Shown here in pieces: positions 1-3,194 of a stretch of 64,000 bases of DNA. The first letter of the stretch is position 1. Every line of letters begins with the position of its first letter. The notes under the pieces were generated by a model. The model searched no databases, was not told the origin of the DNA, and saw only the letters and a program-made list of their open reading frames with translations. The position numbers were made by a program, and so were the translations under genes. Source of the DNA: Nocardioides aurantiacus (GTDB taxonomy: Bacteria; Actinomycetota; Actinomycetes; Propionibacteriales; Nocardioidaceae); assembly GCF_003752505.1 (NCBI RefSeq), contig NZ_RKHO01000001.1, forward strand, positions 1,550,001 through 1,614,000. Reading direction: 5' to 3'.

Positions 1-1743
1 CACCAGGGCGAACGCGACGTCGTAGGACACGCTGTCGTCGCGCGTGTTGACGGCCAGGGCCTGGTTGTCGCCCTCGGAGGGCGGGAGCGGCCGGTCGAAG
101 GGGAACACCCACGGCTGCTCCGCGCCGTCGCCCGCCCCGCTCGCCCCGTCGCCGGTCCCGGCGCCCGCGTCGCTGCGGACGAGCACCATCGCCAGTCGCG
201 GCTCGGCCTTCGTGGGCAGCCGCTCGCCCTTCCCGAAGGTCGCGGCCAGCGGGTCGGAGCCCGCCAGGCGCCGCTCGGCGGCGGCCCCCGTGACCGAGGC
301 CGAGGCGGCCGGGGCGGCCTCGACGGCCGGGCCCCTCACCGCGCCGGGCAGAGCAGCGGTCAGCAGGCCCTTCTCGTCGGGTCCGATGGGGCGGTAGGCG
401 CCCGGGCGCGGAGCCCAGGCGAAGGACAGGAAGATCGCGACGGCGGCCACGAGCGCCACGGCGGCGGTCCGGCGGCCGACGGAGCCGCGGCTCCAGGCCA
501 CCAGCCCGGTGCTCCACCGCAGCACGAGGCGCCCGAGGATCATCCCGCCGGCCACGACGGGCAGGACGACGGCCAGCACCTGGACCACCTGGGCGGCGAC
601 GTCGACGGGGTCGCCCTGGGACCAGGCGGCGCCGACGGCCGAGGAGCTGTCGCCCATCGCGGCCCAGGCGGAGCCGACCAGTCGCGGGAAGGCCTTGACG
701 AGCGTGAAGAGCATGAAGGCCATGAGCGGCACGGTCACCAGCACCCAGGCGGTGATGACGACCCGTGCCCAGGGCTTGAGCACGCGGTTCTCGTCGTCGC
801 GCCAGTGGTGGGGCAGCAGGCCCAGGAGCGTGGGCCGGATCCGCTGGTAGAGGTCGGGGACGCCGGTGAGGTCGGCGAGGACGTGGTAGCCGTCGAAGCG
901 CAGCAGGGGCATCAGCTGCTGCACCATCTGCAGGACCTGCGTGGCCACGAGGAGCAGCAGGGCGTCCCAGCCGGTGGCCCACCAGCCGACGAAGGTGAGC
1001 ACCACGACGACGGCGTTGAAGTAGAGCCCTCCCAGGTCCGTGCGCAGCCGGCCTCCGCGGGGGAGGCGGTAGCTGTCGGTCACGTCGGTGTAGAACGCCG
1101 GCCAGACGAGGTAGAGGCCGGCGCCGATCACCCCGGGCACCGCACCGCCGTAGCGGGCGGCAGCGGCGTGACCGAACTCGTGGAAGCCACCCGACAGCAC
1201 GGTCACCACGAAGACCAGGAGCAGCAGGTGGGGCCGCTGGAAGGCGTCGTACGCCGCCGGGGCCAGCCCGTGCCGGAAGAAGACCCACCCGGTGACGGCC
1301 AGGAAGGCCAGCACCACCGCACCCATGACGCTCGGTCGGAAGAGGATCCGGAACGGGTCGGTGATGCGGCGTGTGGCGGCAGGGTCGGTGACCTTGAACC
1401 GCATCTTCAGCCCGAGCAGGGGGTCGGAGCGCTTCAGGGCCGGCTCGCTGCCGTCGGCCAGCTTCAGCAGGCCCAGCGGCCGGAGCTGTTGGTCGACCAG
1501 CGTGGCGACGACCTCGGGGGTCACCTCACGGCGCACACGCTCGCGCACCCGGGCGGCGACCTCCTCCGGGCTGCTGTGGCCGTCGATGGCGTCGAGGACG
1601 GCGTACAGCAGCGGCGTGAGCTGGAGCGTCTGGCCGTCGCCGCGTCGCACCAGTGCAGGTGGGGTCCGGTAGCCGGACCCCACCATGGTCCCGAGCAGCT
1701 GGAGGCCGTCGGCGCGCGCCGGCGCGTCGACGAGCGCGGTCAC
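1..1743 (-). CDS. M50 (site-2-type) zinc metalloprotease with PqqD-like N-terminus, 3' end outside window
   Basis: This is an intramembrane zinc protease of the 'putative peptide zinc metalloprotease' type. Residues about 20-85 look like a winged-helix PqqD-like domain, typical of proteins that grip a peptide leader. Several hydrophobic segments follow, with the zinc motif HEFGH at residues 188-192 and the third-ligand motif FDGYH around Asp284. After the last membrane segment comes an extracytoplasmic region containing FPFDRPLPPSEGDNQ. The GTG start at 1741-1743 overlaps the upstream gene's TGA in a GTGA tetranucleotide, so the two genes are translationally coupled. The frame is open to base 1, giving 581 codons; the C-terminus is missing. 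The protease assignment is firm; the substrate is unknown, and the coupled repeat protein is the obvious candidate (inference). Confidence 0.85.
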   Translation of the reverse strand, partial: MTALVDAPARADGLQLLGTMVGSGYRTPPALVRRGDGQTLQLTPLLYAVLDAIDGHSSPEEVAARVRERVRREVTPEVVATLVDQQLRPLGLLKLADGSEPALKRSDPLLGLKMRFKVTDPAATRRITDPFRILFRPSVMGAVVLAFLAVTGWVFFRHGLAPAAYDAFQRPHLLLLVFVVTVLSGGFHEFGHAAAARYGGAVPGVIGAGLYLVWPAFYTDVTDSYRLPRGGRLRTDLGGLYFNAVVVVLTFVGWWATGWDALLLLVATQVLQMVQQLMPLLRFDGYHVLADLTGVPDLYQRIRPTLLGLLPHHWRDDENRVLKPWARVVITAWVLVTVPLMAFMLFTLVKAFPRLVGSAWAAMGDSSSAVGAAWSQGDPVDVAAQVVQVLAVVLPVVAGGMILGRLVLRWSTGLVAWSRGSVGRRTAAVALVAAVAIFLSFAWAPRPGAYRPIGPDEKGLLTAALPGAVRGPAVEAAPAASASVTGAAAERRLAGSDPLAATFGKGERLPTKAEPRLAMVLVRSDAGAGTGDGASGAGDGAEQPWVFPFDRPLPPSEGDNQALAVNTRDDSVSYDVAFALV

Positions 1744-3194
1744 GGCGCCGTGGTGGGCGTGCCCTGGTCGCCGGTGCCGGCCGACGTGGTGTCGGCCGGG
1801 GCCTCAGTCGGGGTCTCGGCCGGGGCCGGGGCCTCTGCGGGAGCCGGGTCGGTCGCGGCAGCGTCGCCGGTCGCGTCGGTGCCGTCCGCCGAGGCGGTGT
1901 CGGTGTCCGGCGGCTCGATCGAGCCCTGGTCGATGGCCGAGGTCTGCTCCGAGACCGCGTCGGCGGAGCCGGTGATCGACTGCGTGATGATGGCGTCCTG
2001 CTGGGCCAGGGCCGTGGCCTCGGAGTTCTCCGAGAGGATGTTGGCCGCCACGGAGGCGTCGATCGGGGCCGCGACGTTGGCGTTGGCCGCCACCGCGCCG
2101 TTGATCGGTGCCGCGAGGTCGGCGTCGAGGTCGACGTTGACGTCCACGTTGAGCAGGTCGCCCTTGAGCAGGTCGCCCGTGTCGAGCTGGTCGAGGGTGT
2201 CGGTGACGTCGTCCACGACGCCGCCGACCTGGCCGACGAGGTTGCCGGCGGCGTCGAGCACCTGACCGGTCAGCGGGTCGAGCGCACCCACGACGTTGCC
2301 CGCGGTGTCGACGACGTCGCCCGTGGCTCCGTCGAGGACGCCGACGACGTTGCCCGCGGAGTCGAGCACCTGGGTGCCGTCGACCAGGCCGGTCACCGTG
2401 CCGAGCAGGTCGCCGGTGAGACCGACCACCTGACCCGTCACGGGGTCCAGGGTGCCCACCACGTCGCCGGTCGGGTCGAGCACGTTGCCGGTGGCCCCGT
2501 CGAGCACGCCGACGACGTCACCGGTGGGCCCGGCGACGGACGCACCGTCCACCAGGTCCGTGACGGAGCCGACGACGGCCCCGGTGGTGTCGGTGACCAG
2601 GCCGGTGGCCTCGTTGAGGGTGCCCACCACCGCGCCGTCCGCGCCGAGGACGGTGCCGGTCGCCGAGTCGAGCGTGCCCACGAGCGCGCCCGTGGAGTCC
2701 ACGACGAGGGCGCCGTCGACGGGAGCGCCGGCGGCAGCGGTGCCGGCGGCGTCCGCGGCGTCGGTCGTCCCGGCGGTCGCGTCGTCGACCGTCGTGGTCG
2801 CGGCCAGCGCGGGCTCCTCGCCCCCGGTGCCGCCGGTGTCGCCCGCGACCGGAGTGCCGGGCGTGACGGTGTCGGACTGGTCGATGGTGCTGTCCTGGAT
2901 GCCGGTCGCGGACGCGTCGGCGTCGATGGTCTGCGTGACCTGCACGCCCTGGTCGGCCAGCGCCTGCGACGTCGAGCCGTCGGAGAGCAGGTTGGCGCTC
3001 ACGGCGGCGTCGATCGGGGCCGCGACGTTGGCGTTCAGCGCGACGGCGAGGTCGATCGGCGCCGCACCGTCGATGGCGAGGTCGACGTCCGCAGCGAGGT
3101 CGAGGATCGAGACCACCTCCTTGTCCGGGAGGGCGGTCACCCCCTCGGACGCCAGGTCCTCAGCCGTGATGGGTGCGTACTCGTCGGTGCTCAT
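1740..3194 (-). CDS. Repeat-rich acidic protein of unknown function, coupled to M50 protease
   Basis: The product is 484 aa, very rich in Asp, Gly, Val, Thr and Ala, with almost no aromatic residues and no signal peptide or membrane helix. Three parts are visible: an N-terminal module (about residues 35-110) containing NANVAAPIDAAVSANLLS, a central block (about 170-330) of degenerate units of the form G-x-VVG-x-LD-xx-TG-x-V, and a C-terminal module (about 335-415) repeating the first (NANVAAPIDASVAANILS), followed by a Pro/Ala/Thr-rich tail. The central units resemble beta-roll or beta-helical repeats. A purine-rich ribosome-binding site (GGAGAGGGA) lies 7 nt before the ATG at 3192-3194. Similar proteins are often labelled 'peptidoglycan-binding', but no known binding domain is visible here. 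I do not recognise a function; secretion or processing by the downstream M50 protease is inference. Confidence 0.8.
   Translation of the reverse strand: MSTDEYAPITAEDLASEGVTALPDKEVVSILDLAADVDLAIDGAAPIDLAVALNANVAAPIDAAVSANLLSDGSTSQALADQGVQVTQTIDADASATGIQDSTIDQSDTVTPGTPVAGDTGGTGGEEPALAATTTVDDATAGTTDAADAAGTAAAGAPVDGALVVDSTGALVGTLDSATGTVLGADGAVVGTLNEATGLVTDTTGAVVGSVTDLVDGASVAGPTGDVVGVLDGATGNVLDPTGDVVGTLDPVTGQVVGLTGDLLGTVTGLVDGTQVLDSAGNVVGVLDGATGDVVDTAGNVVGALDPLTGQVLDAAGNLVGQVGGVVDDVTDTLDQLDTGDLLKGDLLNVDVNVDLDADLAAPINGAVAANANVAAPIDASVAANILSENSEATALAQQDAIITQSITGSADAVSEQTSAIDQGSIEPPDTDTASADGTDATGDAAATDPAPAEAPAPAETPTEAPADTTSAGTGDQGTPTTAP

Follow-up and report, generated by a model that had tools for sequence, protein, structure and literature searches.

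Two groups of ribosomally synthesized and post-translationally modified peptides (RiPPs) depend on proteases that resemble the one described here. For daptides, an M50 protease removes the leader in dependence on a RiPP recognition element (RRE) (PMC10036551), and for the protease EpeP both cleavage and export of the peptide have been proposed (PMC10885120, PMC7614699). Here we analyse a 64,000-nucleotide stretch of the Nocardioides aurantiacus genome (contig NZ_RKHO01000001.1, positions 1,550,001 to 1,614,000; G000:C1:1550001-1614000), hereafter the window, which opens inside a gene for a PqqD-like M50 protease paired with a gene for a long acidic partner protein. The original prediction, made from the window sequence, held that the two genes overlap by GTGA and that the partner might be the substrate of a peptide maturation or export system. 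Both open reading frames (ORFs) proved real, and both lie on the minus strand, with the partner running from 3194 to 1740 and the protease from 1743 leftwards, so that the partner stop and the GTG start of the protease share four bases. The original prediction had missed the kinship of the partner with a family of short precursor peptides and a C-terminal CxxC domain of the protease that lies beyond the window edge. With these two elements added, the reading that we favour by a modest margin over an even chance is that a leader guides the cleavage and export of a surface protein, which then assembles on an anchor homologous to it. As far as we searched the open-access literature, this three-part set has not been described.

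The partner and its family of precursors

Relatives of the protease, at about 38–45% identity, adjoin one to five ORFs of about 70 amino acids that follow a common plan of an acidic leader, an LPxRE motif and a core rich in N, A, V and Q. Across 40 such precursors the L and P of the motif are invariant and the E is nearly so. We compared 80 protease loci, sorted into groups A (41), B (13), C (8), D (6), E (6), F and Z, the last three together comprising 12. A profile built from 19 short peptides of group C (L124-L130 only, all from loci other than that of the window) was run on 11,847 stop-to-stop frames from the six reading frames of the 80 loci with a threshold of E<1e-3, and found the window partner (as L044) at E 2.3e-19. 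All 86 ORFs matched were on the protease strand and upstream of the conserved protease start, with 41 in 40 of the 41 group A loci, 25 in all 13 group B loci and, within the training group, 20 in seven of the eight group C loci; the two loci that gave no match, L069 and L123, are cut by contig ends. A wider profile, A4, whose training set contained neither group D nor group E, matched in 6/6 group D and 4/6 group E loci.

The two genes are also conserved as a unit. Homologues that failed to occur together had been named in advance as the outcome that would count against the pair, and the opposite was observed. Among 294 genomes of the family, the protease was found in 44, weakly in three (E 4e-4 to 4e-9) and strongly in 41. 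An A4 precursor was present in 40 genomes, all of them among the 41 with a strong protease, and in none of the other 253; in the exception among the 41, G059, a contig end truncates the protease. A4 was built in part from these family genomes, and its absence from the other 253 is independent of that training. In a second sample of 296 genomes from the phylum (Actinomycetota only), A4 matched in 19 and the protease (E<1e-30) in 29, with 18 in common. Membership of the partner in the precursor family, taken with co-occurrence, makes it very probable that the partner is the substrate of the protease, as had been suggested.

The partner gene (1740..3194, minus strand, as are all features below) appears to encode an enlarged precursor of the LPxRE family, 484 amino acids long. 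Conservation and hydropathy delimit a putative hydrophilic leader at residues 1-33 (3096..3194), with LPDKE at residues 22-26 (bases 3117-3131). Core unit 1, at residues 52-108 (2871..3041), is a 57-residue segment that matches together with the leader at E 3.2e-22 and recurs as core unit 2, at residues 369-425 (1920..2090), which has no leader and matches the profile over core positions alone, at E 3.3e-9; a leader-less second core match in the same ORF is usual across the close subfamily. Between the two cores lie three 56-residue super-repeats (residues 160-327; 2214..2717), pairwise identical at 31, 33 and 28 of 56 positions, each predicted to form three beta-hairpins, with AlphaFold strands at block pLDDT values mostly of 51-85. 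These super-repeats match the Pfam families DUF3659 (26.2 bits, cut-off 24.8) and Bflower_2 (25.8 bits), a likeness confined to the partner centre; the short precursors tested contain no such segment, and the hairpins look like an insert of the window clade. An acidic Pro/Thr-rich tail occupies residues 426-484 (1743..1919). The AlphaFold model, built from three sequences, has a mean pLDDT of 49.6 and is poor outside the hairpin centre; a Foldseek search with it gave no match at E up to 0.001, from which we draw no conclusion.

With 78 D+E against 2 K+R, a single aromatic residue and no Cys, the partner is as acidic and low in aromatics as first described, and its centre is truly repetitive. 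No ordinary signal peptide is visible because the leader has no hydrophobic stretch, its highest 19-residue mean hydropathy being 0.52, compared with a whole-protein peak of 1.41. Across the precursors, maximum mean hydropathy was 1.2-1.4 by group, about 1.4 in groups A and C, with no clear transmembrane segment. The seven short precursors tested gave no convincing Pfam or NCBIfam match, and a PDB search with the precursor profile found no sequence at E up to 10.

Substrates range from about 65 amino acids up to open frames of 936 codons, the latter being a very long precursor relative beside the protease at L185 (G814:C1:4655138-4655923). Loci L183, L186 and L187 form a separate subgroup with shorter proteases (open frames of 464-480 codons) and Cys-containing precursors of the type LPEREMMALVNV. 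Group E (L139-L144) has another type of precursor core, LLPDRLTLAAVEINR..., with NSPGSNN, and no CxxC ORF was found beside its proteases.

The probable leader-reading protease

The protease gene occupies 1..1743 and continues to the left of the window, which holds residues 1-581 of 795 (whole ORF L012:14356-16743). At its N-terminus, residues 28-93 (1465..1662) aligned with PqqD in hhalign at 95.2% probability and E 2.9e-8 (94.0% once the remotest rows were dropped), and 40 column shuffles reached at most 7.8%. Other matches were sparser: the window protease itself had no Pfam PqqD match, only 3 of 38 members had one (E up to 0.1, best 0.0091), and the PqqD structure 3g2b matched the protease profile at E 0.12. 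In this region an AlphaFold model gave two successive strands and then three helices, with pLDDT of about 55-72. In sequence and in predicted strand and helix order, the N-terminus therefore resembles a PqqD/RRE domain, as the original prediction had proposed, and the RRE families of daptides could include it.

The zinc site is intact, as had been claimed. HEFGH lies at residues 188-192 (1168..1182) and DGY, the probable third zinc ligand region, at residues 284-286 (886..894) within RFDGY (282-286); H188, E189, H192, D284, G285 and the following Y are invariant in an alignment of 38 sequences. HExxH was present in all 80 protease loci and RxDGY in 75, the five exceptions being the most distant loci. 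The protease profile matched the structure of mjS2P (3b4r) at E 0.0018, and Pfam Peptidase_M50 was matched by 14 of 38 members (E up to 0.1, best 2.2e-8), with only 9.7 bits for the window protease against a cut-off of 27.2. An HExxH within a predicted membrane segment and a DG downstream of it are what would be expected of an M50 (site-2) protease. Hydropathy and charge counts predict six to seven membrane segments within residues 138-444 (412..1332). The loop ahead of the last segment (426-444) has five K+R and no D+E, and because this basic loop precedes the last membrane segment, the charge rule indicates that residues 445-795 should lie outside, with an extracytoplasmic C-terminus.

The nearest NCBIfam model is NF041824, the daptide leader peptidase MpaP, which scored 99.8 bits against a cut-off of 300; the YydH/LiaK protease model NF058609 scored 39.9 against 225. 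On these scores the protease is a relative of the daptide and epipeptide families and not a member of either. An AlphaFold model of the L009 protease from four sequences (mean pLDDT 39.8) was poor except in the RRE region, and a VIA-align comparison returned common helix matches only; no conclusion was drawn from it.

Two variants of the gene deserve record. In group B (L070-L081, L132) the protease forms a single chain with a MinD/ParA-like ATPase, as read from translations, and is preceded by two short precursors. The linear plasmid NZ_CP102333.1 of Streptomyces changanensis (L196) carries a protease relative of 41.8% identity with an 86-amino-acid gene just upstream, both annotated as hypothetical; for the members tested, neither Pfam nor NCBIfam describes the component families.

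A CxxC domain that resembles the precursor core

The tail of the protease holds two CxxC repeats in a domain, recognized by sequence and profile, at residues 570-660 (G000:C1:1549764-1550036), only the start of which falls within the window (1..36). A profile trained on this region of group A matched within the protease in all 41 loci of that group and found CxxC ORFs in 13/13 group B, 7/8 group C and 5/6 group D loci and in 9 of 16 further loci from the phylum; at the threshold used, the 12 loci of groups E, F and Z gave no match. In groups B-D the domain is mostly a separate downstream ORF, whereas in the window clade it is fused to the protease. Several of the separate ORFs begin with an apparent signal peptide (judged by eye, with no predictor), and a Pro/Ser/Thr-rich tail closes many of them. 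A separate CxxC protein comes immediately after three precursors in G761.

The CxxC unit, N.A.A.N..C..C...A.A.Q, aligns without gaps with the precursor core, which has S or T at the Cys positions. For example, the L130 repeat APENVAIAVNENCTACETLASAYQFVVS and the precursor core APVNAAVAANVLSDNSVAYANAEQDVDI agree at AP.N.A.A.N and at A.A.Q, and the core has S where the repeat has Cys. A 28-position matrix made from 81 unique repeats with the Cys columns masked was used to score all frames. Of 137 precursors, 110 outscored every one of 14,128 other frames and 124 lay above the 99.9th percentile of those frames; 95 beat all 200 shuffles of their own composition and 116 were beaten by at most two. 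The best gapless match within the partner is core unit 2, at 21.5 bits. In a profile comparison with all cores, the second CxxC repeat reached 74% at E 2.7e-5, and none of 60 shuffles scored as high. We read these matches as common descent of the core and the CxxC anchor, with convergence as the alternative.

Small ORFs beside precursors at L192:8530-8886 (-), L180:9831-10082 (-) and L191:8384-8809 (+) carry a basic version of the CxxC/core unit, N.A.A.N.G.K followed later by S[ST][RK]Q, and are possibly a fourth component.

Taken together, the parts suggest the following route. The partner would be made without a signal peptide, and its acidic leader, which carries LPDKE, would be bound on the cytosolic side by the PqqD/RRE domain of the protease, a step that we infer from co-occurrence, the conserved motif and the type of domain. 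The moderately hydrophobic stretch after LPDKE would enter the intramembrane zinc site, and a cut near the end of the leader would let the core leave on the outer side, by analogy with EpeP and the daptide protease; that the partner is exported at all we consider likely. Outside, the core would meet the CxxC domain, which in the window clade is the protease's own C-terminal tail. Because a unit of about 21-28 residues is common to domain and core, the CxxC domain could anchor or nucleate a fibre or coat built from cores, like CsgB for CsgA; assembly on the homologous domain has, in our estimate, slightly less than an even chance. BLAST clustering of genes within 7 kb in the 80 loci revealed no gene cluster other than the three parts that is common to most loci. 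Nor did a conserved modifying enzyme turn up among these neighbours, not every one of which was compared with family models. The product is therefore probably unmodified, which would set it apart from RiPPs in the narrow meaning of the term. If the route is correct, a mutant of the active site or of LPDKE is predicted to retain the partner in the cell.

Several observations weigh against this route. In the phylum sample, 11 of the 29 protease genomes, some of them with weak or distant protease matches, had no precursor match, one of the 19 precursor genomes had no protease match, and in G761 the precursor-CxxC genes and the protease are on different contigs. In the CxxC matrix, 27 of 137 precursors fell below the best unrelated frame, and neither the first CxxC repeat alone nor the secreted repeats of group B alone resembled the cores above shuffles. 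A beta-like pattern was present only in the first half of group A and C cores (mean z about 2), being absent from group B cores and from second core halves, and the AlphaFold model of the partner places low-confidence helices in the cores. This mixed pattern is not counted as proof of amyloid. Export without a further transporter is a proposal even for EpeP, and the whole mechanism is computational, drawn from sequences and models.

Among other explanations, a RiPP-like antibacterial or signalling system is improbable but the best placed: the protease would release the short peptides to act as toxins or pheromones, and the CxxC domain, resembling its ligand, would confer immunity or capture the peptide. 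The nearest curated families are indeed daptide and epipeptide leader proteases, whose products include a haemolysin and an envelope toxin, and sets of two to three different small peptides are reminiscent of multi-peptide bacteriocins and of daptide systems with their three precursors. However, the loci share neither a modifying enzyme nor a resistance transporter, the 484-residue window product, very acidic and with two basic residues, is unlike membrane-active peptides, and in 41/41 group A loci the CxxC region is part of the protease itself.

The likeness between CxxC domain and core could instead reflect convergence on an alternating N/A/Q strand pattern, with the domain serving the exported core as thiol-disulphide chaperone or as redox anchor. 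A domain that is predicted to lie outside and has two CxxC motifs would suit such a role, and the failure of the first repeat alone to match cores also speaks for this view, but the alignment runs without a gap for 28 positions once the Cys columns are masked, most precursors beat their own shuffles, and the window precursor, being free of Cys, offers nothing to oxidise; we give this explanation a rather small chance. A marginally smaller one attaches to regulated intramembrane proteolysis, the role for which M50 proteases are best known, in which the partner would be a cytosolic or membrane-bound signalling protein that is cut and not exported. The lack of a signal peptide fits that idea, whereas the precursors have neither a DNA-binding or sigma-factor Pfam domain nor a clear transmembrane segment, and a leader-binding domain combined with a predicted outside domain bearing the substrate's unit would not be expected. 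Leader-guided export and assembly on a homologous anchor accordingly remains the explanation that we prefer.

Genomic setting and comparison with known systems

The pair is flanked by sufR on one side and a DinB-like gene on the other, the former encoding a SufR-like protein (TIGR02702, 66.8 bits, below the cut-off of 178.8). To the left of the window follow the DinB-like gene, an ABC ATPase, an ABC permease, COX15- and COX10-type genes and a transketolase, mostly named from translations. The original prediction expected this side to decide the function by revealing an exporter, a radical SAM enzyme or a kinase. As candidates for modification or export these genes were rejected: they look like housekeeping genes, and congeners keep them next to sufR without the pair. 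The maturation and export interpretation thus stands as regards a substrate of a leader-reading protease, and not as regards the modifying neighbours it anticipated.

A search of the genus recovered the sufR locus in 23 of 24 genomes, with the partner beside it in two, the window genome and L198. Among the remaining 21 sufR loci, five adjoin the DinB-like and ABC ATPase genes, nine adjoin an ABC ATPase without a DinB-like gene, and in seven sufR is the sole match within a short flank. In G104 the sufR-DinB order is intact (L204) and the pair is carried on other contigs. Because congeners show this empty site, with sufR next to a DinB-like or ABC gene, the pair is a self-contained accessory unit that was inserted here. 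The four-base overlap is possible in 13 of 38 tested loci of the close subfamily, and other spacings occur in the remaining 25. PAS/sensor-type proteins in 14 loci were considered as a recurrent partner and turned out to be heterogeneous. A BTAD-type regulator, read from its translation, recurs in group B only, where 12 of the 13 loci have it on the opposite strand.

Like the present protease, daptide MpaP fuses an RRE to an M50 intramembrane protease and acts beside several precursors in which a short recognition motif is conserved, and the alignment of the two spans both RRE and catalytic part (residues 30-350 to NF041824 19-343). Unlike MpaP, the present protease is larger and has a CxxC domain, and its substrates run from about 65 residues up to the 936-codon frame. 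The modifying-enzyme set of daptides was not seen either: neither the window translations nor the clustering of neighbours described above gave a decarboxylase, aminotransferase or methyltransferase as a common neighbour. EpeP, YydH and LiaK are likewise M50 proteases proposed to cut and export their own peptide, but the recurring neighbours of the present loci include no radical SAM epimerase such as epipeptides have.

Actinobacteria already have small self-assembling surface proteins in the chaplins and rodlins of Streptomyces, which carry Sec signal peptides and are not known to have a dedicated protease. The leaders here have no signal-like stretch, and no chaplin family was matched, at E up to 1, by the window partner, seven precursors, four separate CxxC proteins or the tail of the window protease. 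The same set gave no curlin match at that threshold, a test of sequence only, and the units tested match no Pfam repeat. Curli (CsgA/CsgB) and Fap (FapC/FapB) nevertheless offer a parallel in design: the major exported subunit and its nucleator share a repeat, as proposed here, and by our own reading the likeness extends to a strand-turn-strand unit, about 20 residues long and marked by N/Q. They differ in being exported across a Gram-negative outer membrane, and Fap was found only in Proteobacteria in a 2013 survey.

If the proposal holds, actinobacteria have a compact two- or three-gene route to export and build surface material, the RiPP principle of a leader read by an RRE extends to exporting unmodified proteins several hundred residues long, and the nucleator of a protease's product can be part of the protease itself. 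More tentatively, and with the odds against it, the set may represent dedicated fibre or coat biogenesis of a third kind, in monoderm actinobacteria, in which a set of separate short peptides became, in the window clade, one 484-residue chain with two core units. Where curli and Fap use an outer membrane, chaplins a Sec signal and daptides a set of modifying enzymes, a single leader-reading intramembrane protease would here act as recognition factor, maturation enzyme and, through its homologous CxxC tail, outside nucleator of a self-assembling protein, with no Sec signal, outer-membrane pore or peptide modification.

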